Below, piece after piece: positions 6,001-58,407 of a stretch of 59,736 bases of DNA. Under the pieces are notes generated by a model, which was given only the letters and a program-made list of their open reading frames with translations, did not search any database and was not told where the DNA came from. Both the position numbers and the translations under genes were made by a program. Source of the DNA: Nitrosomonas sp. (lineage in GTDB: Bacteria; Pseudomonadota; Gammaproteobacteria; Burkholderiales; Nitrosomonadaceae); NCBI GenBank assembly GCA_017879645.1, contig JAAEXZ010000006.1, positions 1 through 59,736 of the forward strand, given 5' to 3'. Within the stretch, counting starts at the first letter, position 1. Each line of letters starts with the position of its first letter.

Positions 6001-6067
6001 TTTTGCTTTAGGATGGCAAATTCATGCAGCTTGATTGATTCAAACACGTGCGTTTGGGAGAGTGAAC

Positions 6068-40806: not shown

Positions 40807-41799
40807 ATGTTGATTAACGAATTTGAAGCCATGACCATTTCACTTGTTACTGATTATGAACACGGTATCAGTGCCATTGATGCACAATTTCATCGCCCCA
40901 AGCGCGCAGCCATACATTTGCTGGTAGAAAACGGCAGGGCAGCGTTGATTGATACTGGTACCAATTCTTCCATTCCAGGTGTTCTGGACGCACTGCAGCA
41001 AAAAAACATTGCTGTGGACGATGTGGTTTATGTCATCCTGACCCATATCCATCTCGATCACGCTGGTGGTGCGAGTGAATGTATGCGTGTTTTTCCCAAT
41101 GCCAAGCTGGTCGTGCATCCACGTGGAGCAGGTCACATGATCAATCCAGCGAGACTGGTAGCGGGGGCAATGGAAGTTTACGGAGAGACCGAATTCCGGC
41201 GTGTTTATGGAGAAATCGGTCCAATAGATTCGCAACGGATTATCGAAGCGACCGATGAAAGCCTGATTGACTTGAATGGCCGTACTTTGCTTTTTCTGGA
41301 TACGCCAGGACATGCGCGACATCATAATTGTATCTACGATGAGCGCAGTCAGTCTTTTTTTACCGGAGATACATTCGGTGTATCGTATCGGGAATTTGAT
41401 GTGAATGGAATGGAGTTTGTGTTTCCAACAACGACCCCGGTTCAGTTTGACCCCGATGCAGCACATCACTCGGTGGACCGCATCATGCGATATCAACCGC
41501 GCTATGCTTTTCTTACACATTACAGCCGTATCGATCATTTATCCCATCATGCAAAGGTAATGCATGAACTGATTGATGCACATGTTGACATTGCACTCAG
41601 TGCAAAAGCCAGCAACACCGATCGGCAGGCTTTTATTTCTAGCGCTCTAAGAGCGTTATTCAAACAAAAACTGGTGGATCAAGGTTGTCAGTTAGCAGCA
41701 GTGGAAGTTGATAACTTGTTGAAATCCGACATCCAGTTGAATACGCTGGGTTTAATGCACTGGCTGGATCATCCTACGGAACGATTCAAACGCATCTGA
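40807..41799 (+). CDS. Metallo-beta-lactamase fold hydrolase
   Basis: This 330-residue protein has the MBL metal motif THIHLDHAGG (about residues 78-87), further metal residues in DTPGHARHH and FFTGDTFG, and a C-terminal His in FLTHYSR. A helical C-terminal part of about 100 residues follows the MBL core. It could act as a hydroxyacylglutathione-hydrolase-like or lactonase-like enzyme, but the substrate cannot be named. An ATG at 40831 is an alternative start. It probably shares a transcript with acs and is convergent with the GGDEF-EAL gene. Confidence 0.88.
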   Translation: MLINEFEAMTISLVTDYEHGISAIDAQFHRPKRAAIHLLVENGRAALIDTGTNSSIPGVLDALQQKNIAVDDVVYVILTHIHLDHAGGASECMRVFPNAKLVVHPRGAGHMINPARLVAGAMEVYGETEFRRVYGEIGPIDSQRIIEATDESLIDLNGRTLLFLDTPGHARHHNCIYDERSQSFFTGDTFGVSYREFDVNGMEFVFPTTTPVQFDPDAAHHSVDRIMRYQPRYAFLTHYSRIDHLSHHAKVMHELIDAHVDIALSAKASNTDRQAFISSALRALFKQKLVDQGCQLAAVEVDNLLKSDIQLNTLGLMHWLDHPTERFKRI

Positions 41800-41818: not shown

Positions 41819-43576
41819 CTAGATGTTTTCGCATAACTTCTTCAATAAAAAAGCTTCTGCTTGATCACCTGGAAGCGGCCGGCTGAGGTAATAACCCTGT
41901 ACTTCGTTGCAACACTTGTTTTTGAGAAAATCCAGTTGCGTATTAGTTTCAACTCCCTCAGCAGTAACTTTCATTTTCATGCTACCTGCCATCGCAATGA
42001 TGGCCGCTGCAATGGCACCGTTATCGGTGTTTTGTTCGAGATTCCGAACAAAAGCTTGGTCGATCTTCAGTCGATCAATCGGAAAATTCATTAGTCTGCT
42101 TAAACTGGAGTATCCCGTTCCAAAATCATCAATAGCCAGCTGCACTCCAACTTTCTTCAACTGTTCAAGAATATTGATTACTAGATCGACATCGTTGATC
42201 AGCGCGCTCTCGGTAAGCTCCAGTTCAAGTACTTGCGGCTTCAGTTTTGTTTCGGCCAGAATGGCACCAACCAGTGCAGGGAAGCCACGGTGCAGCAACT
42301 GTACGGCAGAAACATTGACGGCAATACGTTCGAGGGGTATTCCACGACTGCACCATGCCTGAGCCTGAATGCAAGCCTGGCGTAAAACCCATTCACCGAT
42401 ATGAATGATTAATCCAGTTTCCTCGGCCAAGGGGATGAACTCGGCTGGGGATATTGAGCCCAGTTCCTTGTTATGCCATCGCAATAAGACTTCCATGCCG
42501 TTGAAACAGGCTTTGTCCACATCAAGCTGTGGTTGATAGTGCAATTCAAATTCCTGCCGTTCTATAGCTTTGCGCAAATGATTTTCCATGGTGAGTTTAC
42601 GCACTGCCATCTCCATCATGTAGCTGGAAAAATAACAATACATATTGCCACCATTGCGTTTGGCGTAATACATGGCCAAATCCGCATTTTTTAATAAGTC
42701 TTCTGCTGTATTACCATCATCCGGGTAAATGGCAATACCTATACTGGTTGTGGTAGCGAGTTCATGCTCTCCAAATGTAAGGGGTTGAGCCAAATTGACA
42801 CGTATGCGCTCAGCTACGATCGCGGCATCCTCGTTCCGCTCGATCAGTGATAATAATGCGGTAAATTCATCCCCTCCCAAACGTGCCAGTGCAATATCAT
42901 TTGGACTCACTGCTGTTTGTACGACGGCATCGCTGACACGGATGCTTTTTCGTAAACGTTCGCTGGTGGCCTGGAGCACGAGATCGCCTAAATGATGACC
43001 TAACGTGTCGTTGATGCGTTTAAAACCATCCAGATCAAGAAACAACACGCCGAGTTTCAGATTCTTACGCTGCGCCAAGCCAATCATTTGTTGCAGGTTT
43101 TCCTGAAAAAAATGGCGATTCGGCAATTCAGTGAGGTCATCGAAATAAGCCATGTGATGCAAGCGCTGCTCGCTTTGCAGGAGTTGTTGTGTGGTGTAGC
43201 TTCCTTTCAACATATATCTAACCCGATGACTCAGCAACGGAATGTTGATCGGTTTGGTGATAAAGTCTGTTGCACCGACTTCATAGGCACGATTGATGGA
43301 TTCAAGATCTTCCAGTCCTGTCATCATCAAAATCGGAATATGGCGACCTTCCGGCAAGTTTCTCAGTTCTGTACAAGTGGCATAACCGTCCATTCCCACT
43401 GGCATCATGACATCCAATAAAATGGCATCGATCTTGTTTTCCTTGAACATATGCAGACCTTCTTCCCCGCTTGCCGCTTCGACGGTATTCAAACCCGCTG
43501 CCTGTAGCGTTTTACTAACCACTAACCGGATCAAAGGATCATCATCAATAATTATGACGGTGGATTTCTGTGACAT
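41819..43576 (-). CDS. Response regulator with receiver, GGDEF and EAL domains
   Basis: This 585-residue cytoplasmic protein has a receiver (1-120; phospho-acceptor Asp55, Lys108), GGDEF (about 145-320; intact GGDEF at 234-238, no RxxD inhibitory site five residues upstream) and EAL (about 330-580; signature reads EVLLRW, with intact DDFGTGYSS and AEGVET). It could both make and degrade c-di-GMP. The ATG at 43576 is one base after the stop of the hybrid kinase and has AGGAAG upstream, so the kinase is its likely phosphodonor. It is the last gene of the receptor-signalling cluster. Confidence 0.93.
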   Translation of the reverse strand: MSQKSTVIIIDDDPLIRLVVSKTLQAAGLNTVEAASGEEGLHMFKENKIDAILLDVMMPVGMDGYATCTELRNLPEGRHIPILMMTGLEDLESINRAYEVGATDFITKPINIPLLSHRVRYMLKGSYTTQQLLQSEQRLHHMAYFDDLTELPNRHFFQENLQQMIGLAQRKNLKLGVLFLDLDGFKRINDTLGHHLGDLVLQATSERLRKSIRVSDAVVQTAVSPNDIALARLGGDEFTALLSLIERNEDAAIVAERIRVNLAQPLTFGEHELATTTSIGIAIYPDDGNTAEDLLKNADLAMYYAKRNGGNMYCYFSSYMMEMAVRKLTMENHLRKAIERQEFELHYQPQLDVDKACFNGMEVLLRWHNKELGSISPAEFIPLAEETGLIIHIGEWVLRQACIQAQAWCSRGIPLERIAVNVSAVQLLHRGFPALVGAILAETKLKPQVLELELTESALINDVDLVINILEQLKKVGVQLAIDDFGTGYSSLSRLMNFPIDRLKIDQAFVRNLEQNTDNGAIAAAIIAMAGSMKMKVTAEGVETNTQLDFLKNKCCNEVQGYYLSRPLPGDQAEAFLLKKLCENI

Positions 43577-43577
43577 A

Positions 43578-46364
43578 TCAGTTGCTTCCTGTGTTGGCGG
43601 CAGAATCAAGATAGGATTTTAGAGCCGTACAAGTTTGGTCAAATTGCTTTTGTATGGCTTTCAGGGCTTGTCCCGTCTTGTCATAATTCTGGTTCCGGGC
43701 TTCGTTTTCTACTGCACGGCAAAGCTCGGCCAAACTGTATGCTCCCACCTGACTGCTGCTCGACTTGAGCGTGTGCGAAACCATGCGAATGGTCTTGGAA
43801 TCGCCCGTACCCCAGGCTTGCTCGAGAGATTGCAATAGTTTATTAGAATTATCCAGATAGGTTTTGATGACCTGGGTTAGCAATTCGTCACCATAATCGG
43901 CTTGCAGTGCTCGGATGGAAACCAAAGCATCAGGATCGATTGCAGACTCGGAACGATTTTCTTTTTCAAACATGTCATGTGTACATTCGTTATGAGAGTG
44001 ACTTAACCAATTTTGAAGCATCTGATACAAATCTTTTCCCTTTATGGGCTTGGTAAGATAGTCATTCATTCCAGCTTCCAGGCACCTTTCCCGATCACCC
44101 TCGATTGCGTTTGCAGTCAATGCGATAATCGGGAAATCAGGGAGCAGTCCTGTTTTCTGAAGTTGCCTGATTTCACCCGTAGCTTTATAGCCATCCATCT
44201 CTGGCATCATGCAGTCCATCAAAACAAGATCATATGTGTTATGTCTCACCGCTTCAATTGCTTCCAGGCCATTTTGTGCAACTTCAACGGTGCAGCCAAA
44301 GTTTCGCAACATTCCAAGGGCAACTTCCTGGTTTACGGGATTATCTTCGGCCAATAGCAAATGTGCTTTCAATTGTGGATAAGCAGAAGATTTTGAGTCG
44401 CTCGGCATTTTGGGTTCCGGTGAGGATACATCGGTTACATTGGCGCCCGCAGCCAAAGCCTGTACAAAACATTGATAGAGCTCGACTTTACGAATAGGTT
44501 TCGTCATATAAACAACAAACCCGGCTTTCTTGGCTTCTGCTGCTTCACCTTTGTAATGTGTAGAAGTCAACATGATCAGTGGTATTTTGCCCCAGATAGA
44601 ATCGGCTTTTATTTTCTGTCCGAGTTCCAGTCCATTCATATTGGCCATTTTCATGTCAATCAGGGCGAGATCGAATGGTTTACCCATTGCACTGGCATCT
44701 TTTAATTTCTCTAGTGCTTTAAGGCCACTGGAAACAGCGCTGACCTGCATACCCCATGATTGGGCATAGGTACGCAAAATATCGCGGCTGGTATGATTAT
44801 CTTCTACAATTAGAAGCCTGATAGCGTTCAGGGCTGAAACTTCTATAGTGGAACTGGCTAATTCCGAACTGTTGACAGGCGTCAATGGCAGGGAAAAAGT
44901 GAAAGTTGCACCTTGTCCAAGATGACTGCTGACATTGATTTCATGACCACCCATCAATTCAACCAGTTGTTTGCAGATGGCTAAACCCAGACCTGTACCG
45001 CCGTATTTTCGCGTTGTTGAACCATCCGCTTGCGTAAATGCCTGAAATAATCTCGGCAAAATATTTTCACTAATACCGATACCGGTATCCCTTACACTGA
45101 ACTGAATCCAATCCGAATGAGGGTGGGTATCTTTGGAGGCATTCTGGTTCAGATTGATGTCCACCACGACTTCACCTTGCTCGGTAAATTTGATGGCATT
45201 TCCGACCAGATTACCGAGAATCTGCCGGATTCGTGTTGGATCGCCTGTTACCCATTCTGGCACGCCGGGCGCTATCCGGTAATTCAATTCGAGATGTTTG
45301 CTGTGCGCGCGTTCCGAAAATAACTCGATGACATCTTCAATGGATTTGTGAAGATTGAAATTGATATGTTCCAATTCGAAGCGTCCGGCTTCTATTTTGG
45401 AGAAATCCAGAATGTCGTTAATAATCGACAAGAGTGATTCGCCGGAGTTATGCAGTATGTTGATGAGATGCAACTGTTTTGCATTTAACTGCGTATCGAG
45501 CAGTAACTCGGCCATTCCCAGAACCCCATTCATCGGGGTACGAATTTCATGACTCATGGCGGCGAGGAATTGCGATTTGGCAATGTTGGCAGCTTCTGCC
45601 ACTTCCTTGGCTTGGCGCAATTCAATGGTGCGCTCCTCGATTTTTTTCTCTAGATCGGCATGATATTGCACTAACTCGTGGTCTCTGAGTTGAATTTGCT
45701 CGAGCATATTGTTAAATGCATCGACAAGTGTGCCAACTTCATCATTTTCATCATGTTTTGAAACGCGTAGTGTATATTCTGCTGACTGGGTTACTTTTTG
45801 CACGGTAACCGATAGGTCGAGAATAGGTTGGACAGCTTTTGAAGCCATACGGCGTGCCATGAAAGTGGCCACCAGCAGCGTTGCCAGTACTGCCAAGGCA
45901 GAAATGACCAAACTCCATCCCAGTTGTGCCCACATGCCGCCTAATGCATAGCGGACTTCAAGATTACCGACATGCTCTTCGCTTACGATGACAGGCTGGG
46001 TGATCTGTATGCCTTGAAAAGGAAACCATGATGGAAGCCATACTTGTTTCTCGCTATTAAAATGGGCGATTTCCTGACCATCCAGCGTAGTTAACGATGC
46101 TTTAATAATCGCGGGAATCTTGCGGAGTGAATTCAGCGTTTCCTGCGCACTCTTGTTGTCGAGAAAAGCCAGTGATGCCTGTGAATTACTAGCGGTCACG
46201 CGAGCCAATCCGGCCAATTGCTCTTTGGCTGTATTCAGAGAATTCCGGACTTCATTGGCTGTAATCAGGACAAAAACCAGTAGCATCGAACTGGCTAGGC
46301 TGATAAAAATGATCAATAGCAGCTTGCTGGCTATCGAGCGGTTCTTATTGGATGGAGTAATCAT
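43578..46364 (-). CDS. Hybrid sensor histidine kinase with HPt domain (BarA-like architecture)
   Basis: This is a 928-residue membrane kinase. TM1 (about 13-36) and TM2 (about 147-170) flank a periplasmic CHASE8-like sensor of about 110 residues. HAMP (about 171-225), HisKA (His272 in [11 protein letters not shown]) and HATPase (about 375-495, GGTGLGLAI) follow. Then come receiver 1 (Asp570), receiver 2 (Asp717) and an HPt domain (His864 in SHTLKSSS). All phosphorelay residues are present. It lies 40 bases after a YfiR-family gene and one base before the receiver-GGDEF-EAL gene, so a relay from the envelope to c-di-GMP is likely. Confidence 0.94.
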
Positions 46365-46404
46365 TGCCTGATTTTTGCGTTAATCGTTTTAAATTGAAAC
46401 AAGA

Positions 46405-46956
46405 TCATCGACCTCGAACATCACGTGCAATTTGCAGCAATTGCGCGTTTAATTTCAGCCCAACATGTTTGACTTTTTCCAGATTGACTTCAAAATTTAG
46501 GTTTTTACCGTCATTAATAAGAGATACCATGCCGCCCATGTCAAGAAATCCATTGATATTACTGACGATCAATATCGGCTGATTGCCTATAATCTTGAGC
46601 CACTGACGGACTTGCTCAATATTCTCCTCGCGTGGCAAGAACAACAATTGGCAATCATCAAGCGGCTCATTGATGCTTGTACGTTTGATGCGCACCGGTT
46701 TGCTTTGCGCAGCACGACCGTTGATCGCATCCAGTTCTTCAAAAGGCGAGCTTTTGGTTGAGCATAACGTAATATGATCCGTAACGATACCCTGCGGCCA
46801 CTCGGTAAACTTCATGAAATTATAGAGAAAAGCAGCCGTTAATGTCTGTTCGCTTGCTGCCGGTGCGGCTGAGGCGATTGGAGCGGTGAGGGTAGAAATA
46901 CCTCCGAGGCAACTGATTAACAGGTATATACGAATCATGGAAGTTAGGCGTTTCAT
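46405..46956 (-). CDS. YfiR-family (DUF4154) periplasmic protein, copy 1
   Basis: This 183-residue protein has a signal peptide (MKRLTSMIRIYLLISC, cleavage near ASA about residue 30). The DUF4154 domain follows, with EQTLTAAFLYNFMKFTEWP, VSNINGFLDMGGM and a C-terminal LLQIARDVRGR. Cys65 and Cys102 could form a disulfide. In Pseudomonas YfiR is the periplasmic repressor of the cyclase YfiN. Here no YfiN is adjacent, but a hybrid kinase follows 40 bases downstream. The start is one base after the stop of the broken TonB receptor. It pairs with an equal-length paralogue at 55384-55935. Confidence 0.9.
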   Translation of the reverse strand: MKRLTSMIRIYLLISCLGGISTLTAPIASAAPAASEQTLTAAFLYNFMKFTEWPQGIVTDHITLCSTKSSPFEELDAINGRAAQSKPVRIKRTSINEPLDDCQLLFLPREENIEQVRQWLKIIGNQPILIVSNINGFLDMGGMVSLINDGKNLNFEVNLEKVKHVGLKLNAQLLQIARDVRGR

Positions 46957-46957
46957 G

Positions 46958-49007
46958 TTAAAAGCCCCGTTCCAGTCGAAAACGTACAGTCCGTCCATCC
47001 ATGCGGATCGTATCCTGAATATGTTCACTTCCTCCAATCATTTTGGGATGCTGATCCAGAACATTATATGTGTCGATAGAAGGCTGGAAGCCAAAAAAGG
47101 GTTTTGCAGCGGTAATATTGATATTAAAAGATAATATGCCGGAGCTGCTTCACCGCTTAATGTGCGGCGCTTGTCGATAAATATTTCTTCAAGTCTCAAG
47201 CGCATGCGATCGTTGAATAAAGGCTCAGTATAGTGCAACTTGACGAGATTCCGTGGCGAATTGATGGCATGAACCCAGTTGTTGCCCGATGCTTCGTCCC
47301 GCATGTCGGTCTGGTTATAAGTCCAGCTCAGCTTGATCAACCGGTCATTGTCCCAATGCTTTTCGCCCTGTAATTCAAAACCCAAGCTTTGGGGTGCACC
47401 TGTATTGACAAATTGCGCTGTACTTGGATCTTGAACCAGAAGTTTTTTTAAGTCATTGAAGAATACCGTGCCCAGGAAACGGACACCGTGAATAGGATAC
47501 CATTCGGCGATGGCTTCGTAACTTTTGATCAATTCTTCACGATTATTGGGATTGCTGGCATTGGCATTCAATAATACATAATCCCATTCATAAATATTGG
47601 GAGCGCGGAACACCGAACCATACAGCAGTTTTGTCGTCAGGGTCGATGTGGCATGCCATATCAGACCTACACGCGGGTTAAACTGCAAGTGATCGATCAA
47701 ATGATGATGATCCAGACGTAATCCCACATTGAACAATACCGTATCGATCAAGTGGTATTCGTCCTGGATATAGGCGCCAACCCGAACACCGTGGTTATTA
47801 CTGTCGTTATACAAATAGTAAGGACTGATGTCGTAGTTGATCATCTGCTGACGTTGATCGTACTGAAAATCGACACCTGCAACCCATTTGTGATCCTTGA
47901 ACTGGGTGCCAGTCAGTTTGAATTCTCCACCCCACCAGCGAGTTGCGGCGACATCCTTGTTGATGACACGCAAGAATTGAAATTTCTCTGCGTTGAGATC
48001 GTAAGCTTCGATCGTATGATAATCATACCAGTGATGGAACCCGCGCATCTGCAACCCCAGATTGGCATTGATCCGCGTGTTGTACTCCAGATCCGTATAA
48101 ATCTGCCGGTCTACCGTATAAAAATCCTTGTCGTTGAAGATGGCTCCAAATGGAGCCGTCGGTGCACGGCGGAAACGATTGGCATACCCAGCACTGAGGG
48201 TAAAACCACGATAATTCAATCGACTAAACAAGCGGCTACTGCGTTCCTGGTCCATGTTATGGGCAATGCCATTGTTGAATTCCGAGAATTCAGGGAAAAA
48301 TAACGTATCATTGCCATGACTCAAAAACTGAGACGCATTCAGCAAGAAATCCGCACCGTTTTTCCATTGTTTGCCATACGTAAAACGCCCTTGGTACATG
48401 CCCAGACTTCCGGTTTCACCCGTCAGTCTGAGTCCGTTAATATCCTGCCTCTGCTTGGTAATTACGTTGATTATCCTTAGCACTGCATTGGCACCGCATA
48501 CCGATGATCCCGAACCTGGAATGTACCCGATACGATCGATAATGTTCGTGTCGAGCATAAATTCATTACTGATAAATCCTTGATTAAAAACAGCATCGTT
48601 CATGCGGCGATCGTTGGTCATGATCAGCACGCGTGAAATGTAATCAGCGGTGCGACCAAATCCGCGTACGCCCAAATAGGTATAATTGCGATCATCACGA
48701 ACGTACAGGTCGCGCATGGCGCTGAGGGCTCGGCCAGCGTGCGCCAGCCAAAGCTGCGGATGTTTTCTGTGGTCAGGACTTCCACAGCAGAAGGGGCTTC
48801 GGAGGATTTTTGCGTGAATCGGGATGCGGTTTGCACTTCAACATTAACCAACTGTGTCAGCGGTAAATCAAATAACTCATCGTTCTTTTGTGTGCGAACG
48901 GTCAACGGGAATAAAACCAGTGCGAGCAATGACCACTTCCGAAGCTCTAATGTCGAATTGCTATTCGAAACTTTCAATGCGTCATCCGATAAACGCACAA
49001 TAGTCAT
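46958..49007 (-). pseudogene. Frameshifted TonB-dependent receptor (different subfamily)
   Basis: The N-terminal part (MTIVRLSDD..., then LTQLVNVEVQTASRFTQKSSEAPS and RSFGWRTLAE) is read from 49007. The frame is lost at about 48726-48731, where one base is missing in the GGG/C run; the next frame continues ALSAMRDLYVRDDRNYTYLGVRGF for about 550 residues. A second one-base loss in the A run at 47126-47129 shifts the frame again. Restoring it gives NINITAAKPFFGF and a proper receptor C-terminus, RLERGF, with TAA at 46958-46960. The conserved plug motif reads SSVCGANAVLRIINVITK, with Cys and Arg at normally Trp/Tyr and Gly positions. The gene is clearly decayed. Confidence 0.88.
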
Positions 49008-49008
49008 T

Positions 49009-51114
49009 TTAAAAACGCCATGACACACCACCATAAATTCCTTGCGGAATGACAGTCGGTATCGTCGGAATGGTATCGGGTACAAACTCCCTATGGTGTT
49101 GGCTGAACAAGTTCTGACCGACAACGAACAACTCGGTGTTGGGTTTGATCTTGTAGAGCAATTTGGCATCCATCGTCACGTAACCAGGAATGTTGTAAAA
49201 CGTGATTGGGCTGACATAGCGCAACCACAGATTCAACTGCAGTTTTTCTGAGAAATCGTAATTCGAGCGTAGGGAAAAGCGATGGTGCGGGCTGATTTTG
49301 TCCGCGCCGCCTGTGGTTGGATCGAATTCCTGCAGCAGGTCATTGGAACGCATATGCATTTTCAGAAAACTGTAACTGCCCTGCAAACGCCAGTTATGGC
49401 GCGGCTTCCAGTCCACCGAGGTTTCGAATCCGTAGGTCAGTGCCGAGGCGTTATTGTTCAACGTGAGCGGGGCAATGAAACGCAACGGCACACCTGTTCC
49501 CGGTACGAGATTACCCAAATTGATATCACGCAACTGATCAAAGTCATTGATGAATCCGGTCATGTCGATGGATGCTTGCGAAGTCAATTGCCGGCGGTAA
49601 CCCAGTTCGTAAGCGATCATCTTTTCCGATTTGAATTGGCTCGTGCCGTGTACTTGCGACGTAATGGCAAACGGTATGCTGGAAAATCTGGGCAAATCGT
49701 TGATCAATCCAGTATTTAAGAGGAAATCGTTTTCCGAGCGAGATGGGGTTCTGACCGCACGTGATACGGCTGCCCAGATCGAATTCTCCGAGTTGGGTGT
49801 CCACATGAGACGTGCATTGGGCTGGATTTCCCAACCTGTGAAGTCGTTGTGCTCGAACCGGCTACCCACGGTGAATACCAGCCGATCAGGAATCAGCGTG
49901 ACATCGTCGCGGACAAACGTACTGATCAGGTGATTGGTTTGTGCCTGTGGCGAAAATGTCACAAACGGGTTGTTCCAGACTTTGTTGTGATACAAGCGGT
50001 AGTTGCTGCCCCAGGTGATGCTGTGCCGATCAAACAACGGAAAGCGATGTTGAAAATCGACATCGAAACTTTCCGAATCGGAACTGGCAATCGGAAACAG
50101 CAGGAAGCGATTCCGATCATAGTAGGTTTGCAGCATGATGGCGGATTGTTCCGAGTAGGTGCGATCCCAGCGAAAGCGGATATTGCCGCCTTCCTGATGG
50201 CCGCGCAAATTGCGCTGTAAATTCGATGCAAGACTCAGCCCATCCCGATCCAGTGCATTGCCGTCGAAGTTCAGGAACATGTCGCCTTGCAGGGTAAATT
50301 GATCGATCCCGCGAAGATGGTCTACTCTAAAACCACCTCGGGCGGAATGCCATTGATCGTTTGTGCTTTCACCGATTAACGATTGCGTGTGATCCCGTGT
50401 AAATCCTTTCGCATAAACCCGAAACGGCGTTTCGGCATTGATGCGGCCACCATAGCGACCGCTGACAAAGCCGCGTTCAAAACTGCCACCGCCAGCGGTC
50501 AACAATGAACCCTGCGTGTCGGCGGCTTTCTTGGTGATGATATTGATCACGCCATCGACCGCATTCGACCCCCACACCGAGGCTGCGGGTCCGCGAATGA
50601 CTTCTATACGCTCGATGTCCTCCATCAACGTATCCTGCTGTTCCCACAGCACGCCTGAGAACAAGGGAGAATAAACGCTGCGTCCGTCCATCAGCACTTG
50701 CAGCTTATTGGCATACAGACCATTGAAACCGCGTATGCTGACAGCCCACTTGTCCGTGCTGGAACGTTCGACCTGCACGCCTGGAGCCATTCTAAGGGCA
50801 TCCGGGATATTCGTTGCACCTGAACGCCTGATGTCATCCTGAGTAATGACAAAAACTGCGGAAGCCACTTCGGTCAGTTTTTGTGAGCGTCGCGATACCG
50901 AGGTGACTTCGACTTTCATCAGCTCCTCAATGGTCAAATCCAATAAAGGACCGCTTTCACGTGTGCCGGCAGCGTGACTGATATATGAAGAAAATGAAAG
51001 TGTTGCTATGGCCATGAATTTCCAGCCTGCCTGCAAGATCAAGCCGGAATGCTTACGCACAGCACTTGCATTTAAGCGATTAAGTTTTGATAAGGCGTTA
51101 ATTCTTCTAACCAC
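49009..51114 (-). CDS. TonB-dependent receptor, tandem copy A
   Basis: This is an outer membrane receptor of about 701 residues. After the leader come LLDLTIEELMKVEVTSVSRRSQ, a plug (ITQDDIRRSG, IRGFNGLYANKLQVLMDGRSVYSP, VIRGPAASVWGSNAVDGVINIITKK) and a barrel ending GVSWRF. The annotated start is a GTG without a clear ribosome site; an internal start nearer the hydrophobic leader (FMAIATLSFSSYISHA) is possible. The plug is almost identical to copy B over about 150 residues, whereas the barrels differ more. Ligand unknown. The stop is one base before the ATG of the downstream pseudogene. Confidence 0.9.
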   Translation of the reverse strand: MVRRINALSKLNRLNASAVRKHSGLILQAGWKFMAIATLSFSSYISHAAGTRESGPLLDLTIEELMKVEVTSVSRRSQKLTEVASAVFVITQDDIRRSGATNIPDALRMAPGVQVERSSTDKWAVSIRGFNGLYANKLQVLMDGRSVYSPLFSGVLWEQQDTLMEDIERIEVIRGPAASVWGSNAVDGVINIITKKAADTQGSLLTAGGGSFERGFVSGRYGGRINAETPFRVYAKGFTRDHTQSLIGESTNDQWHSARGGFRVDHLRGIDQFTLQGDMFLNFDGNALDRDGLSLASNLQRNLRGHQEGGNIRFRWDRTYSEQSAIMLQTYYDRNRFLLFPIASSDSESFDVDFQHRFPLFDRHSITWGSNYRLYHNKVWNNPFVTFSPQAQTNHLISTFVRDDVTLIPDRLVFTVGSRFEHNDFTGWEIQPNARLMWTPNSENSIWAAVSRAVRTPSRSENDFLLNTGLINDLPRFSSIPFAITSQVHGTSQFKSEKMIAYELGYRRQLTSQASIDMTGFINDFDQLRDINLGNLVPGTGVPLRFIAPLTLNNNASALTYGFETSVDWKPRHNWRLQGSYSFLKMHMRSNDLLQEFDPTTGGADKISPHHRFSLRSNYDFSEKLQLNLWLRYVSPITFYNIPGYVTMDAKLLYKIKPNTELFVVGQNLFSQHHREFVPDTIPTIPTVIPQGIYGGVSWRF

Positions 51115-51236
51115 CGAAGTGTCTTAAATTAGATTTACATATGCCCAATCATAAATTGCCCCGATGCTGACTAATGGATTGATTAAAATATTTTTTGGGG
51201 CGTTATTTGAGCTCTTGCTTTATTGATCTTGCTGGG

Positions 51237-53276
51237 TCAAAAGCGCCATTGCACACCGACATAAACACCCCGTGGGATCGTGGCAGCAGTGGTGGGAATC
51301 GTATCGGAAACAAATTCTCTGTGATTCTGACTGAACAGGTTTTGTCCTACGATAAAAATCTCTGTATTTTTTAGGGGTTTATACAACAGCTTGGCATCCA
51401 TCGTTACATAATTCGAGATGTTGTAAAACGGAATGGCGTCGACATAGCGCAACCAAAGATTCAGTTGCAGTTTTTCGGAGAAATCGTAATTGGATCGTAG
51501 TGATAAGCGGTGCTGAGGACTGATTTTATCGGCACCACCGGTAGTGGGGTCGCTACGTTGCAGAAGGACATTGGAAGTGACGTGCATGTCCAGGAAGCTG
51601 TAACTGCCTTGCAGGCGCCAATTGTGGCGAGGTTTCCAGTCGATTGAGGTTTCAAAACCATAAGTGAATGCCGTTGCCCGATTATTCATTAATACCGGTG
51701 CGATAAGCTGCCGAGGCAATCCAGTGGTCAGTGTGAACGCACCGAGACTGAGATCCCTCAACTGATCGTAATCGTTAATGAAGCCTGTCATATCGATGGA
51801 GGCTTGCTGAGATAACTGACGCCGGTAGCCGATTTCATAAGCAAGCAATTTTTCTGAATCGAATTGAGACGATGTCTGCAATACGGATGTCACAGAAAAG
51901 GGGAGTGCAGACAAGCCGGGAATGCCTCGGAGTTCACCGGTATTGAGTGTTAAATCGTTTTCTCCGCGCGATGGCGTTCTCACAGCACGGGAGACAGCAG
52001 CCCAGAAGGAATGCTCGTTATTCGGTGTCCACATTAGTCGGGCATTGGGTTGTATCTCCCAACCGGTAAAATCGTTATGCTCGAAACGACTACCCAGGGT
52101 CATCGACAGTTGCTCCGGTATCAGAATAATGTCATCGCGAATGAACGTGCTGATCAGATGATTGGTGCGTGTACGCGGCGAAAACTGCATGAATGGAGTA
52201 TCAAATACAGTGTTGTGATACAGGCGATAATTGCTCCCCCATGTCACATTATGCCGGTCATACAAGGGAAATCGATGCTGAAAATCGATATCGAAACTTT
52301 CTGCGTCAATGACACCGATTGGCATCAGATGCGTACGGATGCGATCATAATAGCTTTGCAGCATGATCGAGGATTGCTCCGAAAAAGTTCGATCCCAGCG
52401 AAAGCGAATATTGCCGCCTTCCTGATGTCCCCGTAGCCCCGCATTGAGGTTTGGAGCTAGGCTGAGTCCAGCACTATTGAGAGTATTGCCGTCGGCCATA
52501 TAGAACACGTCACCCTGCAAGGTGAATTGATCGATCCCGCGCTGATGATCGATGCGAAAGCCGCCACGTGCGGAACGCCATTGGTCGTTGACACTATCGC
52601 CCGTCAGGGATTGGGTATGATCTCGACTGAATCCCTTGGCGTAAATCCGAAAAGGCGTATCTTCATTGATTCTGGCGCCATAACGAGCACCAGCAAACCC
52701 TTGCTCGAAACTACCGCCCCCGGCAGTCAGTAACGTACCTTGAGTATCCGCGGCTTTCTTGGTAATGATATTGATGACGCCATTGACAGCGTTGGATCCC
52801 CATACCGAGGCAGCCGGTCCACGGATCACTTCGATACGATCGATATCTTCCATCATCGTATCCTGTTGCTCCCAGAGTACGCCCGAAAAAATCGGCGAGT
52901 AAACGCTGCGCCCGTCCATCAGCACTTGCAGTTTATTGGCATACAAGCCATTGAAACCGCGTATGCTGACCGCCCATTTGTCAGTGCTGACGCGCTCGAC
53001 CTGAACACCAGGCGCCATGCGCAATGCATCGGGAATGTTCGTGGCGCCCGAACGGCGAATGTCATCCTGCGTGATGACGAATACGGCGGAGGCAACTTCA
53101 GTGAGTTTTTGTGACCGCCGGGATACCGATGTGACCTCGACACGCATCAATTCCTCGATGGACATATCCAGCAGCGTGTTGTTGGCACGCAGTGTGGTGG
53201 CATTAACCCAAATTGGGTAATAGTGCACAATACCTACAACCAAAAAGATCCATAACCTCCGTATCCGGGTGCGCAT
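51237..53276 (-). CDS. TonB-dependent receptor, tandem copy B
   Basis: This is an outer membrane receptor of about 679 residues. The leader begins MRTRIRRLWIFLVVGIV and is followed by LLDMSIEELMRVEVTSVSRRSQ. The plug has IRGFNGLYANKLQVLMDGRSVYSP and the barrel ends GVQWRF. ATG 53276 is chosen, 17 bases after the stop of copy C; an ATG at 53306 lies inside copy C and is unlikely. A 122-base gap with no gene separates it from copy A. Ligand unknown. Confidence 0.9.
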   Translation of the reverse strand: MRTRIRRLWIFLVVGIVHYYPIWVNATTLRANNTLLDMSIEELMRVEVTSVSRRSQKLTEVASAVFVITQDDIRRSGATNIPDALRMAPGVQVERVSTDKWAVSIRGFNGLYANKLQVLMDGRSVYSPIFSGVLWEQQDTMMEDIDRIEVIRGPAASVWGSNAVNGVINIITKKAADTQGTLLTAGGGSFEQGFAGARYGARINEDTPFRIYAKGFSRDHTQSLTGDSVNDQWRSARGGFRIDHQRGIDQFTLQGDVFYMADGNTLNSAGLSLAPNLNAGLRGHQEGGNIRFRWDRTFSEQSSIMLQSYYDRIRTHLMPIGVIDAESFDIDFQHRFPLYDRHNVTWGSNYRLYHNTVFDTPFMQFSPRTRTNHLISTFIRDDIILIPEQLSMTLGSRFEHNDFTGWEIQPNARLMWTPNNEHSFWAAVSRAVRTPSRGENDLTLNTGELRGIPGLSALPFSVTSVLQTSSQFDSEKLLAYEIGYRRQLSQQASIDMTGFINDYDQLRDLSLGAFTLTTGLPRQLIAPVLMNNRATAFTYGFETSIDWKPRHNWRLQGSYSFLDMHVTSNVLLQRSDPTTGGADKISPQHRLSLRSNYDFSEKLQLNLWLRYVDAIPFYNISNYVTMDAKLLYKPLKNTEIFIVGQNLFSQNHREFVSDTIPTTAATIPRGVYVGVQWRF

Positions 53277-53293
53277 GTTATCTTTGACAGTGT

Positions 53294-55387
53294 TTAAAAG
53301 CGCCATTGCACACCGCCATAGACGCCGCGAGGAATCTGTACGGGTATGGATGGAACGAAATCGCCCACCGATTCCTGATGGAATTGACTGAACAAGTTTT
53401 GCCCCACCACGAACAGCTCCGTATTTCTATAAGGCTTATATATCAGCTTACTATCCATCGTGACATAGTCGGGGATATGATAAAACGGGATGGAGCTGGT
53501 ATAGCGCAACCACATATTGAGTTGCAATTTATCCGAGAAATCGTAATTGGAACGGAAAGAAACTTGGTGATTTGGATTGGATTTGCCAGCGCCTGCGGTG
53601 GAGGCATCGAAATCCCTGGTCAATGGATTGGAGGAATTGACATCCAGTTGGATGAAACTGTAGCTACCTTGCAGGCGCCATTTTTCAGTAGGTTTCCAGT
53701 CCATGGCAACTTCAACCCCGTAGGTAAGGGCAGAAGCACCATTATTCGTAGTAACGGTGGCCACGAGATGTCTGGGCAGCCCTGTTCCCAGCGTAATTCC
53801 ACCTAAGCTAAAATCGCGTAGCTGACTATAATCGTTGATAAATGCGGCGATGTCGATCGATGCACGCGGTGTCAGCAGTCGCCGATAACCTAATTCATAA
53901 GCCAGCAATTTCTCGGATTTGAAGCCGGACTGTCCGGTGAAAGCAGCCTGAATCGGAAAAGGAAGCGCAGACAGTCCCGGGATACTGGTTAACTGTAACG
54001 CTTTAAGAAATGCATCTTCTTCGGCGCGGGAAGGCGTGCGGACTGCGCGTGATACGGCTGCCCATACCGAGTTCTCCGCATTGGGGGTCCACATCAGGCG
54101 GGCATTGGGCTGAATTTCCAGTCCGGTGAAATCGTTGCGATCCAAACGTGTTCCCAGAGTGAGAGACAGGCGCTCCGGTATCAAGGTGATTTCATCGCGT
54201 ATGAATCCGCTGAAAACATTGTTAGTTCTCGAGGGCGGGTTCATTCGGATGAGGTCGGTCTCGGTCACATGAGTATGGTACATGCGATAATTTGCACCCC
54301 AAGTTACATCATGGCGATTGAAGAGAGGCAAGCGATGCTGGAAGTCGATATCGAAACTTTCGGTATCAAAATCAATGGCCGATCCCGCTTTATGCTTTAA
54401 TTTGTCGAAATAAGTTTGCAACATGATCGACGACCGCTCCGACAGCGTGCGGTCCCAGCGGAACCGGATATTGCCACCTTCATTCGATCCTCGGATACCA
54501 CTCGGACTGAGTGATGGCAAACTGAGTTTAGACGGATCGATCGTATCGCCGATGAAATTCGAGAAAAAATCACCCTGTAGTGTGAACTGGTCGATACCGC
54601 GAGCATGATCGATGCGAAATCCACCGCGAGCCGAGTGCCATTCATCGTTGTTGCTGCTACCTGCTAACGAAGTCGTACTGTCGCGGGTGAATCCCTTAGC
54701 GTAAATTCGAAAGGGAGTTTCTTCATTGATTTTGCTGCCGTAGCGCGCGCCAACGAATCCATGTTCAAAATTGCCGCCGCCGGCGGTCAGCAGGGTGCCT
54801 TGTGTTTCCGCTGCTTTTTTGGTGATGATATTGATGACGCCATTCACCGAATTGATGCCCCACACCGTAGCGGCAGGGCCCCGGATGACTTCGATGCGGT
54901 CGATATCCTCGATCATCGTATCCTGCTGATCCCACATCGTGCCGGACATGATCGGGTTATAAACGCTGCGACCGTCCATCAACACTTGCAGTTTGTTAGC
55001 AAACCGGCCATTGAATCCCCGGATACTGACGGACCAGCGATCCGTGCCGACTCTTTCGACTTGCACTCCAGGCGCCATCCTCAGTGCATCGGGAATATTC
55101 GTGACTCCGGAACGTTTGATGTCGTCCTGGGTGATGACAAAAATGGCCGAGGGCACATCGGTCAGCTTCTGCGCACGCCGGGACGCCGAGGTGACTTCAA
55201 CTTTCATTAACTCCTCGATTGGCAGATCCAGTAGGGCATTGTCGGCGCGCATGCCGCTGGCTGTGGCCGTAGAGACTAACGTAGCGAATGACAACAGAGC
55301 CAACCCGGCATGAAGCGTATTCCATTCTTGTGAGAAAAACCGGATAGTTCGCCACCATCTGAAGTCTTGTTTTCTAGTTAGCTTCAT
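53294..55387 (-). CDS. TonB-dependent receptor, tandem copy C
   Basis: This 697-residue outer membrane receptor has a leader ending near TATA (LLSFATLVSTATASG), then LLDLPIEELMKVEVTSASRRAQ, the plug (IRGFNGRFANKLQVLMDGRSVYNP, VWGINSVNGVINIITKK) and a barrel ending GVQWRF. Its ATG overlaps the TGA of the YfiR-family gene (ATGA), with GAGG upstream, so YfiR copy 2 and this receptor are translationally coupled. Its plug is closer to that of receptor D (FNGRFANK, SVYNP) than to A and B (FNGLYANK, SVYSP). Ligand unknown. Confidence 0.92.
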   Translation of the reverse strand: MKLTRKQDFRWWRTIRFFSQEWNTLHAGLALLSFATLVSTATASGMRADNALLDLPIEELMKVEVTSASRRAQKLTDVPSAIFVITQDDIKRSGVTNIPDALRMAPGVQVERVGTDRWSVSIRGFNGRFANKLQVLMDGRSVYNPIMSGTMWDQQDTMIEDIDRIEVIRGPAATVWGINSVNGVINIITKKAAETQGTLLTAGGGNFEHGFVGARYGSKINEETPFRIYAKGFTRDSTTSLAGSSNNDEWHSARGGFRIDHARGIDQFTLQGDFFSNFIGDTIDPSKLSLPSLSPSGIRGSNEGGNIRFRWDRTLSERSSIMLQTYFDKLKHKAGSAIDFDTESFDIDFQHRLPLFNRHDVTWGANYRMYHTHVTETDLIRMNPPSRTNNVFSGFIRDEITLIPERLSLTLGTRLDRNDFTGLEIQPNARLMWTPNAENSVWAAVSRAVRTPSRAEEDAFLKALQLTSIPGLSALPFPIQAAFTGQSGFKSEKLLAYELGYRRLLTPRASIDIAAFINDYSQLRDFSLGGITLGTGLPRHLVATVTTNNGASALTYGVEVAMDWKPTEKWRLQGSYSFIQLDVNSSNPLTRDFDASTAGAGKSNPNHQVSFRSNYDFSDKLQLNMWLRYTSSIPFYHIPDYVTMDSKLIYKPYRNTELFVVGQNLFSQFHQESVGDFVPSIPVQIPRGVYGGVQWRF

Positions 55388-55935
55388 CGTCCTCTGACCT
55401 CCCGTGCGATTTGCAGCAATTGTGCACTCAGTTTGAGTGACGATTGCCGCACCATATCCAGATTGACCGAGAAATGCAGGTTCTTGCCGTCGTTGTTCAA
55501 AACGAGCATTCCACCCATGTCGAGAAATCCGTTGATATTGCTGACTACCAGAACCGGTTTGGTATTGACGGTTTTGAGCCAGTCACGAATACGTTCTGCA
55601 CCTTCTTCTTGTGGCAGGTACAGTAATTGGCAATCCTGCGTACTATCACCCAATTGCAGGCGTTTGATCTTTACCGGTTTACCTTGCGCCGGGCGACCGC
55701 CAATCGCATTCAATTCCTCAAATGCGGGATGTTTGCTGGTGCAAAGCGTTAACTCCGCACCAAGACTATTTTCCGGCCATTCGGTAAATTTAAGGAAGTT
55801 GAAAAGAAACGCGGCAATCAGGGTTTGCTCGCTGGCAGCCGAAGCAGCCATGGCCGGCGTAGTAGGACCAAAAGATGTAATACTTACGAGCAGGTAGAAA
55901 AGTAGGGCGCGCAGCACGATCTTTATGCGCTTCAT
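55384..55935 (-). CDS. YfiR-family (DUF4154) periplasmic protein, copy 2
   Basis: This is a 183-residue protein of the same length and layout as copy 1 at 46405. A signal peptide (MKRIKIVLRALLFYLLVS) is followed by EQTLIAAFLFNFLKFTEWPE, VVSNINGFLDMGGM and LLQIAREVRGR. Two Cys in the mature part (LTLCTSK and DCQLLYLP) match those of copy 1. GGAG lies eight bases before the ATG at 55935. The stop overlaps the start of receptor C. A periplasmic signalling role between receptor and kinase is inferred from the family and the context. Confidence 0.9.
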   Translation of the reverse strand: MKRIKIVLRALLFYLLVSITSFGPTTPAMAASAASEQTLIAAFLFNFLKFTEWPENSLGAELTLCTSKHPAFEELNAIGGRPAQGKPVKIKRLQLGDSTQDCQLLYLPQEEGAERIRDWLKTVNTKPVLVVSNINGFLDMGGMLVLNNDGKNLHFSVNLDMVRQSSLKLSAQLLQIAREVRGR

Positions 55936-55975
55936 GATCGAAACTCCGTTACCGGGAAAGACAGATAGCTGCACT

Positions 55976-56025
55976 GCTGCAAGGCTACGCAGGCTGGCGT
56001 AACTATGTAACCTGCGTATTGCAGC
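55976..56025 (-). other. Long intercistronic hairpin between receptor D and YfiR copy 2
   Basis: GCTGCAA (55976-55982) pairs with TTGCAGC (56019-56025), and ACGCAGG (55987-55993) pairs with CCTGCGT (56011-56017), giving about 14 base pairs with a small asymmetric bulge and a 17-base loop. No U tract follows on the transcribed strand, so a terminator is unlikely. An RNA stability or processing element that sets different levels of the two genes is possible. Confidence 0.5.
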
Positions 56026-56081
56026 GTGCAATCCTGATCAGTTTTATATGTACTTTTCATGTACTCCCGGGTTTGACTTCT

Positions 56082-58133
56082 TTAAAAGCGCCACTGTGCA
56101 CCGGCATAGACCCCCCGCGGAACTTGCGTTGCCATGGAAGGAATGAAATCGGATACGAATTCACGGTGGTTCTGGCTAAACAGATTTTGACCTACGACAA
56201 ATAGCTCGACGTTCTTGAACGGCTTGTAGGTCAGCTTGCCATCCATCGTGACGTAATCCTGAATGTCGTATAAGCTGATATCGCTGACGTAGCGGAGCCA
56301 TAGATTGAGCTGCAGTCGCTCAGAAAAATCGTAGTGCGAGCGCACCGAAACCTGATGCTGCGGCGTAACCTTCCCGGCACTGCCCACCGAAGCATCCGAG
56401 AGCTTGAAAAAAGGATTGGAATCGGTATGGATCTGGATAAAACTGTAATTGCCCTGTAACCGCCATTTTTCAAGCGGACGCCAATCGGCCGATACTTCCA
56501 CGCCGTAAGTGTATCCGCTGGCCTGATTGTTGATCTGCACCGGCAGTGTCAGATGTACAGGAAAAGTAGTCTGGAGTGTCAGGGCGTGCGCAGACAAATC
56601 GCGCAATTGACTGTAGTCATTGAAGAACCCGGTCAGATCGATAGAAGCTTGTTGTGACCACTGATACCGATAGCCCAATTCATAAGCCAGTAATTTTTCC
56701 GATGTGAAGTGGTTATTGCCGGCGAGTTGCACCAGCAATGGAAAAGGTAGTAGTGCCGTGGTTCCAGGTAACGAATTGAGCGTACGGGTATTTAGCAGGA
56801 CATCGTTCTCGGCACGCGAGGGTGTGCGCACGGCACGGGAGATGGCAGCCCAGACCGAATGCTTCTGATCCGGAGTCCACATCAACCGTGAATTGGGTTG
56901 GACTTCCAGACCGCTAAAATCGTTGTGATCCACACGTACACCCAGAGTCAGTTTCAAACGATCCGGCAGCAGGGCGATTTCATCGCGTGCATAACCACTG
57001 ATCAGGTGATTGGTTTGTTGGCGCGGGTTCAGTGAAATGAGCTCGGAATCGAAGACCTTATTGTGATACAGACGATAATTTGTTCCCCAGGTTATGTCAT
57101 GACGATCGAACAATGGGAAACGGTGCTGGAAGTCAATATCGAAGCTTTCCGCGCGAAATTGCGCTGCAGTCAACTGCCGGTAATCGACCCGATCATAGTA
57201 GGTTTGCAACATGATCGAAGATTGGTCGGAAAAGGTGCGATCCCAGCGCATGCGAATGTTGCCGCCTTCGATATGCCCCCGAGTAGCTTCCATCTGGATC
57301 AGAGGGGCGCTTAACTGGGTCTTGTCTAGCGTATCGCCGATTGAATTGTAGAATAGGTCACCCTGAGCGGTAAACTGATCGTTGCCACGCTGATGGTCGA
57401 CTCGAAAACCACCCCGGGCGCTGTGCCAGGCATCGTCAACTGAATGGCCTGAAAGCGACGACATGTTAGCACGCGAAAAGCCCTTGGCATAAATGCGAAA
57501 TGGCGTGTTTTCACTGAATTTTCCACCGTAACGTGCACCTGCAAAGGCATGCTCAAAACTGCCGCCGCCGGCTGTCAGCAGGGTACCCTGGGTGTCGGCT
57601 GCTTTCTTGGTGATGATGTTAATGACGCCATTGACTGCATTTGCTCCCCATAATGCTGCGCTGGGTCCCCGAATGACTTCGATACGATCGATATCTTCCA
57701 GCAGCGTATCCTGTTGCTCCCATTGCACGCCGGCAAACAATGGGTTATAGACACTGCGACCGTCCATGAGCACTTGGAGCTTGTTGGCAAAACGTCCATT
57801 GAAACCGCGTATGTTGATAGCCCATTTGTCGGTTCCGATGCGTGTCACTTCAACACCCGGAGCCATGCGTAAAGCTTCGGGGATGCTCGTGACACCGGAG
57901 CGTTTGATGTCATCTTGCGTAATGACAAACACAGCGAATGGCGTTTCGGATAGTTTCTGCGAGCGGCGTGAGGCCGTGATGACTTCGACTTTCATCAGTT
58001 CTTCGATTGAAAGATCCAGAAGCGCAGGGGTTGCGCGCATATCGGCAGCAATCGCTATATTCGCATGACAGTAGACTGTGATCATCATCAATACATAGCC
58101 AAATTTTAAGATCAAGTCATTGCTCAAAGTCAT
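56082..58133 (-). CDS. TonB-dependent receptor, copy D (first gene of the cluster)
   Basis: This 683-residue outer membrane receptor has a leader (MTLSNDLILKFGYVLMMITVY, cleavage near IAIAA), then LLDLSIEELMKVEVITASRRSQ, the plug (IRGFNGRFANKLQVLMDGRSVYNP, LWGANAVNGVINIITKK) and a barrel ending GAQWRF. ATG 58133 is chosen over a TTG at 58139; AGGCAA lies about eight bases upstream. It is the most upstream gene of the same-strand block and divergent from a small lipoprotein gene, so the main promoter should lie in 58134-58407. Ligand unknown. Confidence 0.92.
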   Translation of the reverse strand: MTLSNDLILKFGYVLMMITVYCHANIAIAADMRATPALLDLSIEELMKVEVITASRRSQKLSETPFAVFVITQDDIKRSGVTSIPEALRMAPGVEVTRIGTDKWAINIRGFNGRFANKLQVLMDGRSVYNPLFAGVQWEQQDTLLEDIDRIEVIRGPSAALWGANAVNGVINIITKKAADTQGTLLTAGGGSFEHAFAGARYGGKFSENTPFRIYAKGFSRANMSSLSGHSVDDAWHSARGGFRVDHQRGNDQFTAQGDLFYNSIGDTLDKTQLSAPLIQMEATRGHIEGGNIRMRWDRTFSDQSSIMLQTYYDRVDYRQLTAAQFRAESFDIDFQHRFPLFDRHDITWGTNYRLYHNKVFDSELISLNPRQQTNHLISGYARDEIALLPDRLKLTLGVRVDHNDFSGLEVQPNSRLMWTPDQKHSVWAAISRAVRTPSRAENDVLLNTRTLNSLPGTTALLPFPLLVQLAGNNHFTSEKLLAYELGYRYQWSQQASIDLTGFFNDYSQLRDLSAHALTLQTTFPVHLTLPVQINNQASGYTYGVEVSADWRPLEKWRLQGNYSFIQIHTDSNPFFKLSDASVGSAGKVTPQHQVSVRSHYDFSERLQLNLWLRYVSDISLYDIQDYVTMDGKLTYKPFKNVELFVVGQNLFSQNHREFVSDFIPSMATQVPRGVYAGAQWRF

Positions 58134-58407
58134 AAACAATTTGCCTGTGGTATGTCGGCCACAGCTTACTCACTTTTCCGGATATTGTGAATTTTCACCT
58201 TATTTTTCATTGGCTAACAATGATAATCTGTTGTAATGACCGCTAATTTGCGAATTAAAGGGTATTAAATTGCTTTATTCCGAATTGCCGGATCGTGAAA
58301 ATGATGTCAATAGACTTTTTGCAATGCTGCTATTACTTGTTAAACTGGCCGCTCCGGTGATTACGAGCGTAATCATCATTTTTCTTTATAACTTGGTGCT
58401 TCCGATA

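Follow-up and report, generated by a model that had tools for sequence, protein, structure and literature searches.

A TonB receptor-YfiR-CHASE8 kinase gene run in Nitrosomonas as a candidate Yfi-type trans-envelope signalling module

The stretch of DNA analysed here (the window: 59,736 nucleotides of contig JAAEXZ010000006.1, Nitrosomonas sp. assembly GCA_017879645.1) carries, at 41819-58139 on the minus strand, a run of nine genes in one order that brings together outer-membrane receptors, periplasmic YfiR proteins, a hybrid histidine kinase and a putative cyclic diguanylate (c-di-GMP) output protein. The genome is an assembly of 186 contigs with two AMO-family (ammonia monooxygenase) genes, and therefore the source is an ammonia oxidiser. 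Reading the open reading frames (ORFs) with Pfam gives, in the order of transcription, a first TonB-dependent receptor (TBDR1), YfiR2, TBDR2, TBDR3, TBDR4, the decayed TBDR5, YfiR1, the CHASE8 hybrid kinase and a REC-GGDEF-EAL protein, that is, four intact and one decayed TBDR and two YfiR (DUF4154) genes beside the kinase and its putative output. The first-pass annotation, made from the sequence alone, had described nine genes in the same direction with this order and these domains, including four intact receptors and a broken one as well as a complete phosphorelay in the CHASE8-like kinase; strong Pfam E-values, Plug and barrel domains in four receptors, frameshifts in the fifth and phosphorelay residues readable in the translated kinase bear this out. 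It had also described overlaps or gaps of 1-40 bases at most junctions, which holds: with the likeliest starts, the eight junctions measure, in transcription order, about 146, -4, -13 to +17, 122, 1, 1, 40 and 1 bases, the spacing being tight except at two of the eight, which exceed 100 bases. A scan of the run for consensus promoters and terminators yielded no clear excess over shuffled sequence, so that the run is no more than a putative operon. The downstream neighbour (40807-41799, plus strand) converges on the run, and no relatives of the run were found in the viral contigs searched.

The hybrid kinase (43578-46364, minus strand) has the architecture CHASE8-HAMP-HisKA-HATPase-REC-REC-HPT, with 50.6 bits for CHASE8 against a cut-off of 27, and its periplasmic CHASE8 region (45927-46265, minus strand) includes an ASLAF stretch that aligns with AAVVF of DgcN/YfiN. 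The cyclase YfiN/DgcN, too, has CHASE8 in the periplasm (115.7 bits for DgcN of E. coli). The REC-GGDEF-EAL protein follows at 41819-43609 on the same strand, with a likely ATG at 43576, one base past the kinase stop codon. By the standard motifs of these domains, the translations show the residues of the phosphorelay, a GGDEF motif and the customary EAL catalytic residues (with EVL in place of EAL). No solved structure was found by sequence for the CHASE8 domain of the window; its structural model (predicted local distance difference test, pLDDT, 89.7) is PAS/Cache-like, and the sole match below 1e-3 is the LapD-type output domain 4u64. LapD binds the periplasmic protease LapG, and this parallel is also drawn in PMC3375315.

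Both YfiR proteins, YfiR2 (55384-56031, minus strand; likely ATG 55935) and YfiR1 (46405-47037, minus strand; likely ATG 46956), are periplasmic YfiR/HmsC-like proteins by their DUF4154 matches (1.4e-36 and 1.9e-36, respectively). YfiR1 matches 4zhu in a phmmer search (1.8e-7), and its AlphaFold model (pLDDT 92) matches P. aeruginosa YfiR (4yn9) at 3.5e-9 in Foldseek. In fold, the model (window 46405-46860) is also similar to substrate-binding proteins of the single-domain kind from Rhodothermus marinus (5z6v, 6k1x and 8wgl; template modelling score of about 0.6 and E-values of 1e-5 to 4e-5 for the best three), to which the YfiR profile shows no sequence match. In P. aeruginosa YfiR, C71 and C110 are described as a redox-responsive pair, and the YfiR proteins of the window keep a Cys at both aligned positions.

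The four intact receptors, TBDR1 (56082-58139), TBDR2 (53294-55387), TBDR3 (51237-53306) and TBDR4 (49009-51114), all on the minus strand, are 62-75% identical to one another, TBDR4 and TBDR3 being the pair at 75%. TBDR1, the first gene of the run, belongs to the TOL_0244 family (NF053590, cut-off 645) with 645.1 bits; TBDR3 also exceeds the cut-off with 648.6 bits, and TBDR2 (614.1) and TBDR4 (641.4) fall below it. TBDR5 (46958-49007, minus strand) is of a separate subfamily and decayed: it is split over the ORFs 48624-49169 and 47038-48717, with the final 50 or so codons in another frame, and therefore contains at least two frameshifts; in addition, the Trp of the plug WGxNA stretch present in the four intact receptors is a Cys here. 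The main ORF of TBDR5 scores 58 bits to NF053590 and resembles, at about 35% identity, not the intact four but the receptors that immediately precede YfiR in lineages such as L225 and L247, which suggests that a different receptor adjoining YfiR1 is being lost while the tandem receptor family has grown. Given the two separate frame changes and the altered plug residue, we reject a mere sequencing slip; an assembly error may still lie behind the break. In the genome as a whole, six of the 13 Plug matches over the cut-off fall in its two YfiR clusters, one of the six being the decayed TBDR5. Among the ten ORFs scanned with Pfam, no STN signalling domain was found in the receptors and no FecR or sigma factor was detected; lacking STN, the receptors were rejected as FecA-type transducers.

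The second cluster lies on contig 169 (L058:7672-15112) and consists of a TBDR, YfiR and a CHASE8 kinase with an adjoining HDOD/REC/GGDEF protein, so that both CHASE8 genes of this genome have YfiR directly upstream. Across 41 genomes (this one included; 25 of the genus), CHASE8 over the cut-off was detected in 16, all 16 with DUF4154, and DUF4154 in 17. A frequent order in these relatives is TBDR, YfiR and CHASE8 kinase, then REC-GGDEF-EAL and/or REC-GGDEF, with REC-GGDEF-EAL after the kinase in several, and in L076, L077 and L093 YfiR stands beside CHASE8-GGDEF(-EAL). The adjacency of receptor and YfiR is not due to chance: of the YfiR genes in the two complete genomes examined from this genus, 5 of 7 and 4 of 4 (9 of 11) have a same-strand TBDR within 3.5 kb, against 1.4% and 0.7% of random places in the same genomes. 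There are also fused forms: one 1638-residue protein (L071:3799-8715, minus strand), adjoining YfiR and a TBDR, comprises the CHASE8 hybrid kinase, a receiver and GGDEF-EAL, and in two genomes of the genus (L078:5042-7636, minus strand; L079:7482-10016, plus strand) YfiR (DUF4154) is fused to HisKA-HATPase-REC, with no Pfam match to CHASE8.

We then consider 249 genomes drawn evenly from Pseudomonadota. For the relatives above as well as here and in the other phyla, neighbours were called with a mechanical ORF caller and with profiles derived from sequences of the window and its relatives, calls of no neighbour include contig ends, and rows are not independent, many coming from few genera. YfiR lies directly upstream on the same strand at 63 of the 76 CHASE8 places with at least 27 bits and at none of the 42 weaker places, which serve as an internal control and, under this definition of the cut-off, include three places that the search tool marked as over cut-off and that have neighbours. 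CHASE8 occurs in 60 genomes and YfiR in 55, with 54 having both, six CHASE8 only and one YfiR only. Among 68 YfiR rows, with the genus itself counted apart, the outer-membrane neighbour is a same-strand TBDR within 3.5 kb in 47, OmpA in nine and neither in 12; none has both. The output is a cyclase for all nine OmpA-linked rows (L163 being assigned by eye from the listing), whereas the 47 TBDR-linked rows include 33 kinases, three GGDEF proteins, three cut or unclear cases and eight without an adjacent CHASE8 gene; the contrast of cyclase and kinase, 9/0 for OmpA against 3/33 for TBDR, gives a Fisher p of 2.5e-7, computed over these non-independent rows.

Beyond Pseudomonadota, adjacency of TBDR and YfiR was found in ten named phyla, in two of them by barrel fragments only. 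In the named set, which consists of the best 80 of 315 relatives and is biased to TBDR because the query was an alignment of TBDR-linked YfiR, 66 of 79 loci have a same-strand TBDR beside YfiR and none has OmpA; this leaves 13, in four of which the TBDR is divergent. Acidobacteriota (149 genomes) and Thermodesulfobacteriota (148 genomes) were sampled by family, with the centre genomes coming from the named set and counted. In the former, 44 places were listed and 40 examined (two of the remaining four fell below the cut-off), and these 40 comprise 28 with a same-strand TBDR, five with a divergent one and seven with neither; in the latter, 20 of 22 places have a same-strand TBDR and two have neither. 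OmpA was called at none of these 62 places, with flanks of just 1.5 kb in Thermodesulfobacteriota, where an OmpA gene further downstream would be invisible. The core conserved across phyla is receptor, YfiR and kinase, and the output varies.

The two kinds of YfiR also differ in sequence (P. aeruginosa numbering). C145, C152, F151, P178 and D167 are each present in 10/10 OmpA-linked rows, against 2/82, 0/82, 0/82, 1/82 and 7/82 TBDR-linked rows, respectively; in the window, YfiR1 and YfiR2 lack the C145-C152 pair and F151 in the alignment, and P178 is missing as well. Other residues are kept in both sets: G148 (10/10 OmpA-linked, 75/82 TBDR-linked), F162 (10/10, 72/82), N165 (9/10, 68/82) and L181 (10/10, 77/82). 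Most residues typical of YfiB-linked YfiR are thus absent from the TBDR-linked set. According to PMC4887326, PMC4655355 and PMC3375315, P178 lines the YfiB pocket, the region that binds YfiB is described as held by a C145-C152 bond, and the proposed YfiN site has F162 as its central Phe; since F151 is placed in the proposed YfiN site and L181 in the YfiB pocket, kept and lost residues do not split cleanly by site. In the unrooted YfiR tree, the OmpA-linked rows and two unlabelled ones form one clade (Shimodaira-Hasegawa-like approximate likelihood ratio test, 100), and the outer-membrane neighbour label changes once when only labelled rows are considered, or three times for OmpA once the unlabelled rows are treated as a group of their own. 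The 12 rows of this YfiB-type set are ten with the OmpA label, including E. coli, plus L193 and L226, chosen by hand after inspection of the sequences; in these two, OmpA is not in view and the OmpA-linked residue pattern is shared except for one F151, and all 12 fall in the one clade. YfiR genes thus split into a single OmpA/YfiB clade with cyclase outputs and a much broader TBDR set with mostly kinase outputs. Rows shorter than 100 residues and L229-L231 were left out of the residue comparison and the tree, and the two fusions are also off the tree. In L229, L230 and L231, DUF4154 matches only in the later part of the model, and the proteins adjoin histidine kinases without a CHASE8 call.

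YfiR and CHASE8 co-vary more closely than CHASE8 and the kinase core of the same protein. For 143 kinase-type YfiR-CHASE8 pairs (161 before an 85% identity filter, which dropped 18), the distance matrices correlate at 0.615 (0.594 given HATPase), compared with 0.244 for CHASE8-HATPase and 0.217 for YfiR-HATPase. Mean-field covariance places 20 YfiR-CHASE8 pairs above four standard deviations, against 0-4 in 12 re-pairings and three for YfiR-HATPase (23 against 10 in a joint three-block run). The top three pairs link positions 174, 182 and 184 (P. aeruginosa numbering) at the YfiR C-terminus with CHASE8 columns 6, 9 and 25 after the Phe of AAVVF, and the region after this Phe is, in PMC3375315, the genetically mapped YfiN-YfiR region, so that the top pairs agree with the genetic map. 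The Phe itself is kept in 52/52 kinase-type and 22/22 other CHASE8 domains of the YfiR-paired group, the latter being cyclase-type or including proteins cut at contig ends, and the group containing L158, L163 and L193, which were placed there by hand and are also present in the unpaired group. For the receptor (N=74), the correlations are 0.41 for YfiR-barrel, 0.36 for CHASE8-barrel and 0.20 for HATPase-barrel, with partial correlations of 0.13, 0.16 and 0.02, respectively, and -0.03 for YfiR-plug.

The run is readily compared with YfiBNR/TpbB of P. aeruginosa and yfiR-dgcN-yfiB of E. coli. As in these systems, a periplasmic YfiR, with the YfiR fold in the YfiR1 model, stands beside an inner-membrane CHASE8-HAMP protein with the Phe of AAVVF kept. 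Unlike them, the window has a TBDR as the neighbour instead of OmpA/YfiB (no OmpA call was made among the genes of the run, the sole one in the window being far off at 1229-1771, plus strand), the CHASE8 protein ends in HisKA-HATPase-REC-REC-HPT with no GGDEF, the c-di-GMP output is the separate REC-GGDEF-EAL protein, and C145, C152, F151 and P178 are missing from YfiR. Hybrid kinase outputs of YfiR were reported in silico in 2012, for example, in Thauera sp. MZ1T (Malone et al., PMC3375315), where GGDEF-EAL, HPT or kinase domains serve as the outputs of many divergent YfiR partners, yfiB being absent in most instances, and two YfiR accompany one hybrid kinase in a single instance; the window resembles these systems in the YfiN-like sensor domain on a hybrid kinase, the lack of yfiB and the two YfiR per kinase, and the pairing itself was accordingly rejected as new. 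TonB has no occurrence in the main text of that paper, and its section on these systems names no outer-membrane partner. No published account of a TonB receptor-YfiR link was found in the literature searched, which mostly excludes subscription journals, so that one may exist elsewhere; in their available parts, papers naming both YfiR and TBDRs mention them apart, as do those naming both YfiR and a hybrid histidine kinase. NCBIfam 20.0 has consecutive models NF053590 (TOL_0244 receptor), NF053591 (TOL_0243 YfiR-like) and NF053592 ('sensor histidine kinase, YfiR-like protein-associated'); therefore, curators have seen the triad, and we rejected the idea that it had gone unnoticed. The same three kinds of gene are found in the window, with two of the four intact receptors over the NF053590 cut-off; it differs in having YfiR proteins (103.7 bits for YfiR2 and 98.9 for YfiR1, cut-off 125) and a kinase (132 bits, cut-off 194) below the respective cut-offs, tandem receptors, two YfiR and a c-di-GMP output. 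TonB-receptor signalling of the FecA-FecR-FecI type offers another comparison: the two share a TonB receptor with a proposed trans-envelope signalling role, but the run has no STN, FecR or sigma factor, and the proposed adaptor is YfiR-CHASE8.

Several other features of the window lie outside the run. An Rfam search for the run returned one match only, located elsewhere in the window; the 5_ureB_sRNA match at 13008-13294 (131 bits, plus strand) runs opposite to the gene for the urease alpha subunit and may reflect merely conserved coding sequence. A 440-residue ORF with no Pfam match at E 0.001 (15193-16515, minus strand) lies directly upstream of the UreD gene, and a REC-REC-GGDEF protein (1885-3165, minus strand) and a further TBDR (6035-8134, plus strand) are also encoded.

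On balance, we consider it probable, if only somewhat, that the run is a Yfi-type trans-envelope module in which TBDRs take the place of YfiB and the hybrid kinase takes the place of the YfiN output. This reading starts from the observed gene content, its conservation, the domain identities, the retained motifs and the co-variation of YfiR and CHASE8. In the resting state, periplasmic YfiR would bind the CHASE8 domain and hold the kinase in one state; occupancy of a receptor, or a solute brought in by it, would remove or change YfiR, and the change would pass via HAMP to the kinase and then through a His, Asp, Asp, His phosphorelay to the REC-GGDEF-EAL protein by way of its receiver, and this protein would make or degrade c-di-GMP. 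The four intact receptors could feed several related ligands into one core. We infer the direct binding of YfiR to CHASE8 at this locus and its sign, along with the receptor-to-YfiR step, the choice of output protein by the kinase and any ligand. Signalling from receptor to c-di-GMP, as the first-pass annotation had proposed, remains the best reading. The annotation would have been refuted by a neighbourhood found nowhere else, but the neighbourhood is conserved in the genus, in Pseudomonadota and across ten phyla. The same annotation had YfiR paired with a hybrid kinase instead of its normal cyclase partner; the pairing is real but not peculiar to this locus, being known since 2012 and the commoner form in our samples, and, because the kinase has the CHASE8 domain of YfiN, YfiR appears to keep its usual kind of partner, with the output alone differing. 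What it had missed is the apparent place of TBDRs in the position of YfiB and the separation of YfiB-linked and TBDR-linked YfiR on the tree.

A number of observations weigh against this module. The covariance analysis has low depth and retains shared ancestry; its strongest pair rests on the 31 of 143 rows that are not Leu-Ala, and the second and third (5.8 and 5.6) are barely above the top re-pairing (5.6). The co-variation of the receptor is modest and not specific to YfiR, and the Phe of AAVVF, also present in 21 of 24 CHASE8 domains not called beside YfiR, is not pairing-specific. In L073 and L074, which by YfiR are the nearest relatives, a TBDR precedes the kinase, and YfiR lies further upstream and not directly before the kinase. 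Among the YfiR rows, 12 of 68 in Pseudomonadota and 7 of 40 in Acidobacteriota have no TBDR in range, some at contig ends, and 24 of 45 YfiR rows in the genus and order sample have a TBDR with no adjacent CHASE8 gene; not every YfiR, therefore, need serve a kinase.

The receptors might only import a solute, with YfiR acting as a small periplasmic binding protein whose bound or free form controls the CHASE8 kinase and makes no contact with the receptor. The resemblance of the YfiR1 model to the R. marinus substrate-binding proteins, the weak receptor-YfiR co-variation and the absence of most YfiB-type residues from TBDR-linked YfiR fit such a relay, as does the weak binding of vitamin B6 and L-Trp by P. 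aeruginosa YfiR at the YfiB site, given in PMC4887326; the affinities reported there are, however, in the ten-millimolar range, the YfiR profile has no sequence match to those binding proteins, and the consistent presence of a TBDR next to YfiR makes some coupling likely. We regard this alternative as rather unlikely, though to be taken seriously.

Many two-component systems adjoin their target genes, and with receptors and kinase in one gene run, the kinase and its output could instead regulate the receptor genes in an uptake feedback, the receptors being targets and not inputs. The signal would then enter elsewhere, for example, from redox state or the cell wall, in keeping with the conserved Cys aligned with C71/C110. 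But the output in the window is a c-di-GMP protein, not a DNA-binding regulator, and receptor, YfiR and kinase are conserved across phyla while the output varies, so that control of expression alone seems improbable. That separate uptake and c-di-GMP genes merely travel together, without a functional link, would accommodate the extra TBDR-YfiR pairs that stand without a kinase; adjacency in ten named phyla, the 9 of 11 cases against about 1% expected in two complete genomes, the exclusive split of outer-membrane partners and the YfiR-CHASE8 co-variation make it highly implausible.

Apparently new are the consistency of the receptor partner, the fact that it and YfiB exclude each other, the single clade of YfiB-linked YfiR, and the co-variation of YfiR with CHASE8 rather than with the kinase core. 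It is conceivable, at a confidence a little short of even, that TonB receptor-YfiR-CHASE8 systems form a general class of signalling across the envelope that differs from FecA-FecR, is spread over many phyla and may be the older form of Yfi; YfiB (OmpA) would then be a later partner of one cyclase-linked branch and YfiR a standard adaptor between exchangeable outer-membrane sensors and cytoplasmic outputs. Under the module favoured here, YfiR would bind the CHASE8 kinase and the matching receptor would relieve or set that binding. Repressors of the YfiR family are known mainly from biofilm control via YfiB and YfiN. If most of the family responds to nutrient receptors instead, uptake at the outer membrane would be linked directly to phosphorelays and c-di-GMP in many bacteria, and many receptors without a known ligand could gain a signalling role. 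In ammonia oxidisers, to speculate, such a system could tie attachment to the supply of metals or other nutrients.

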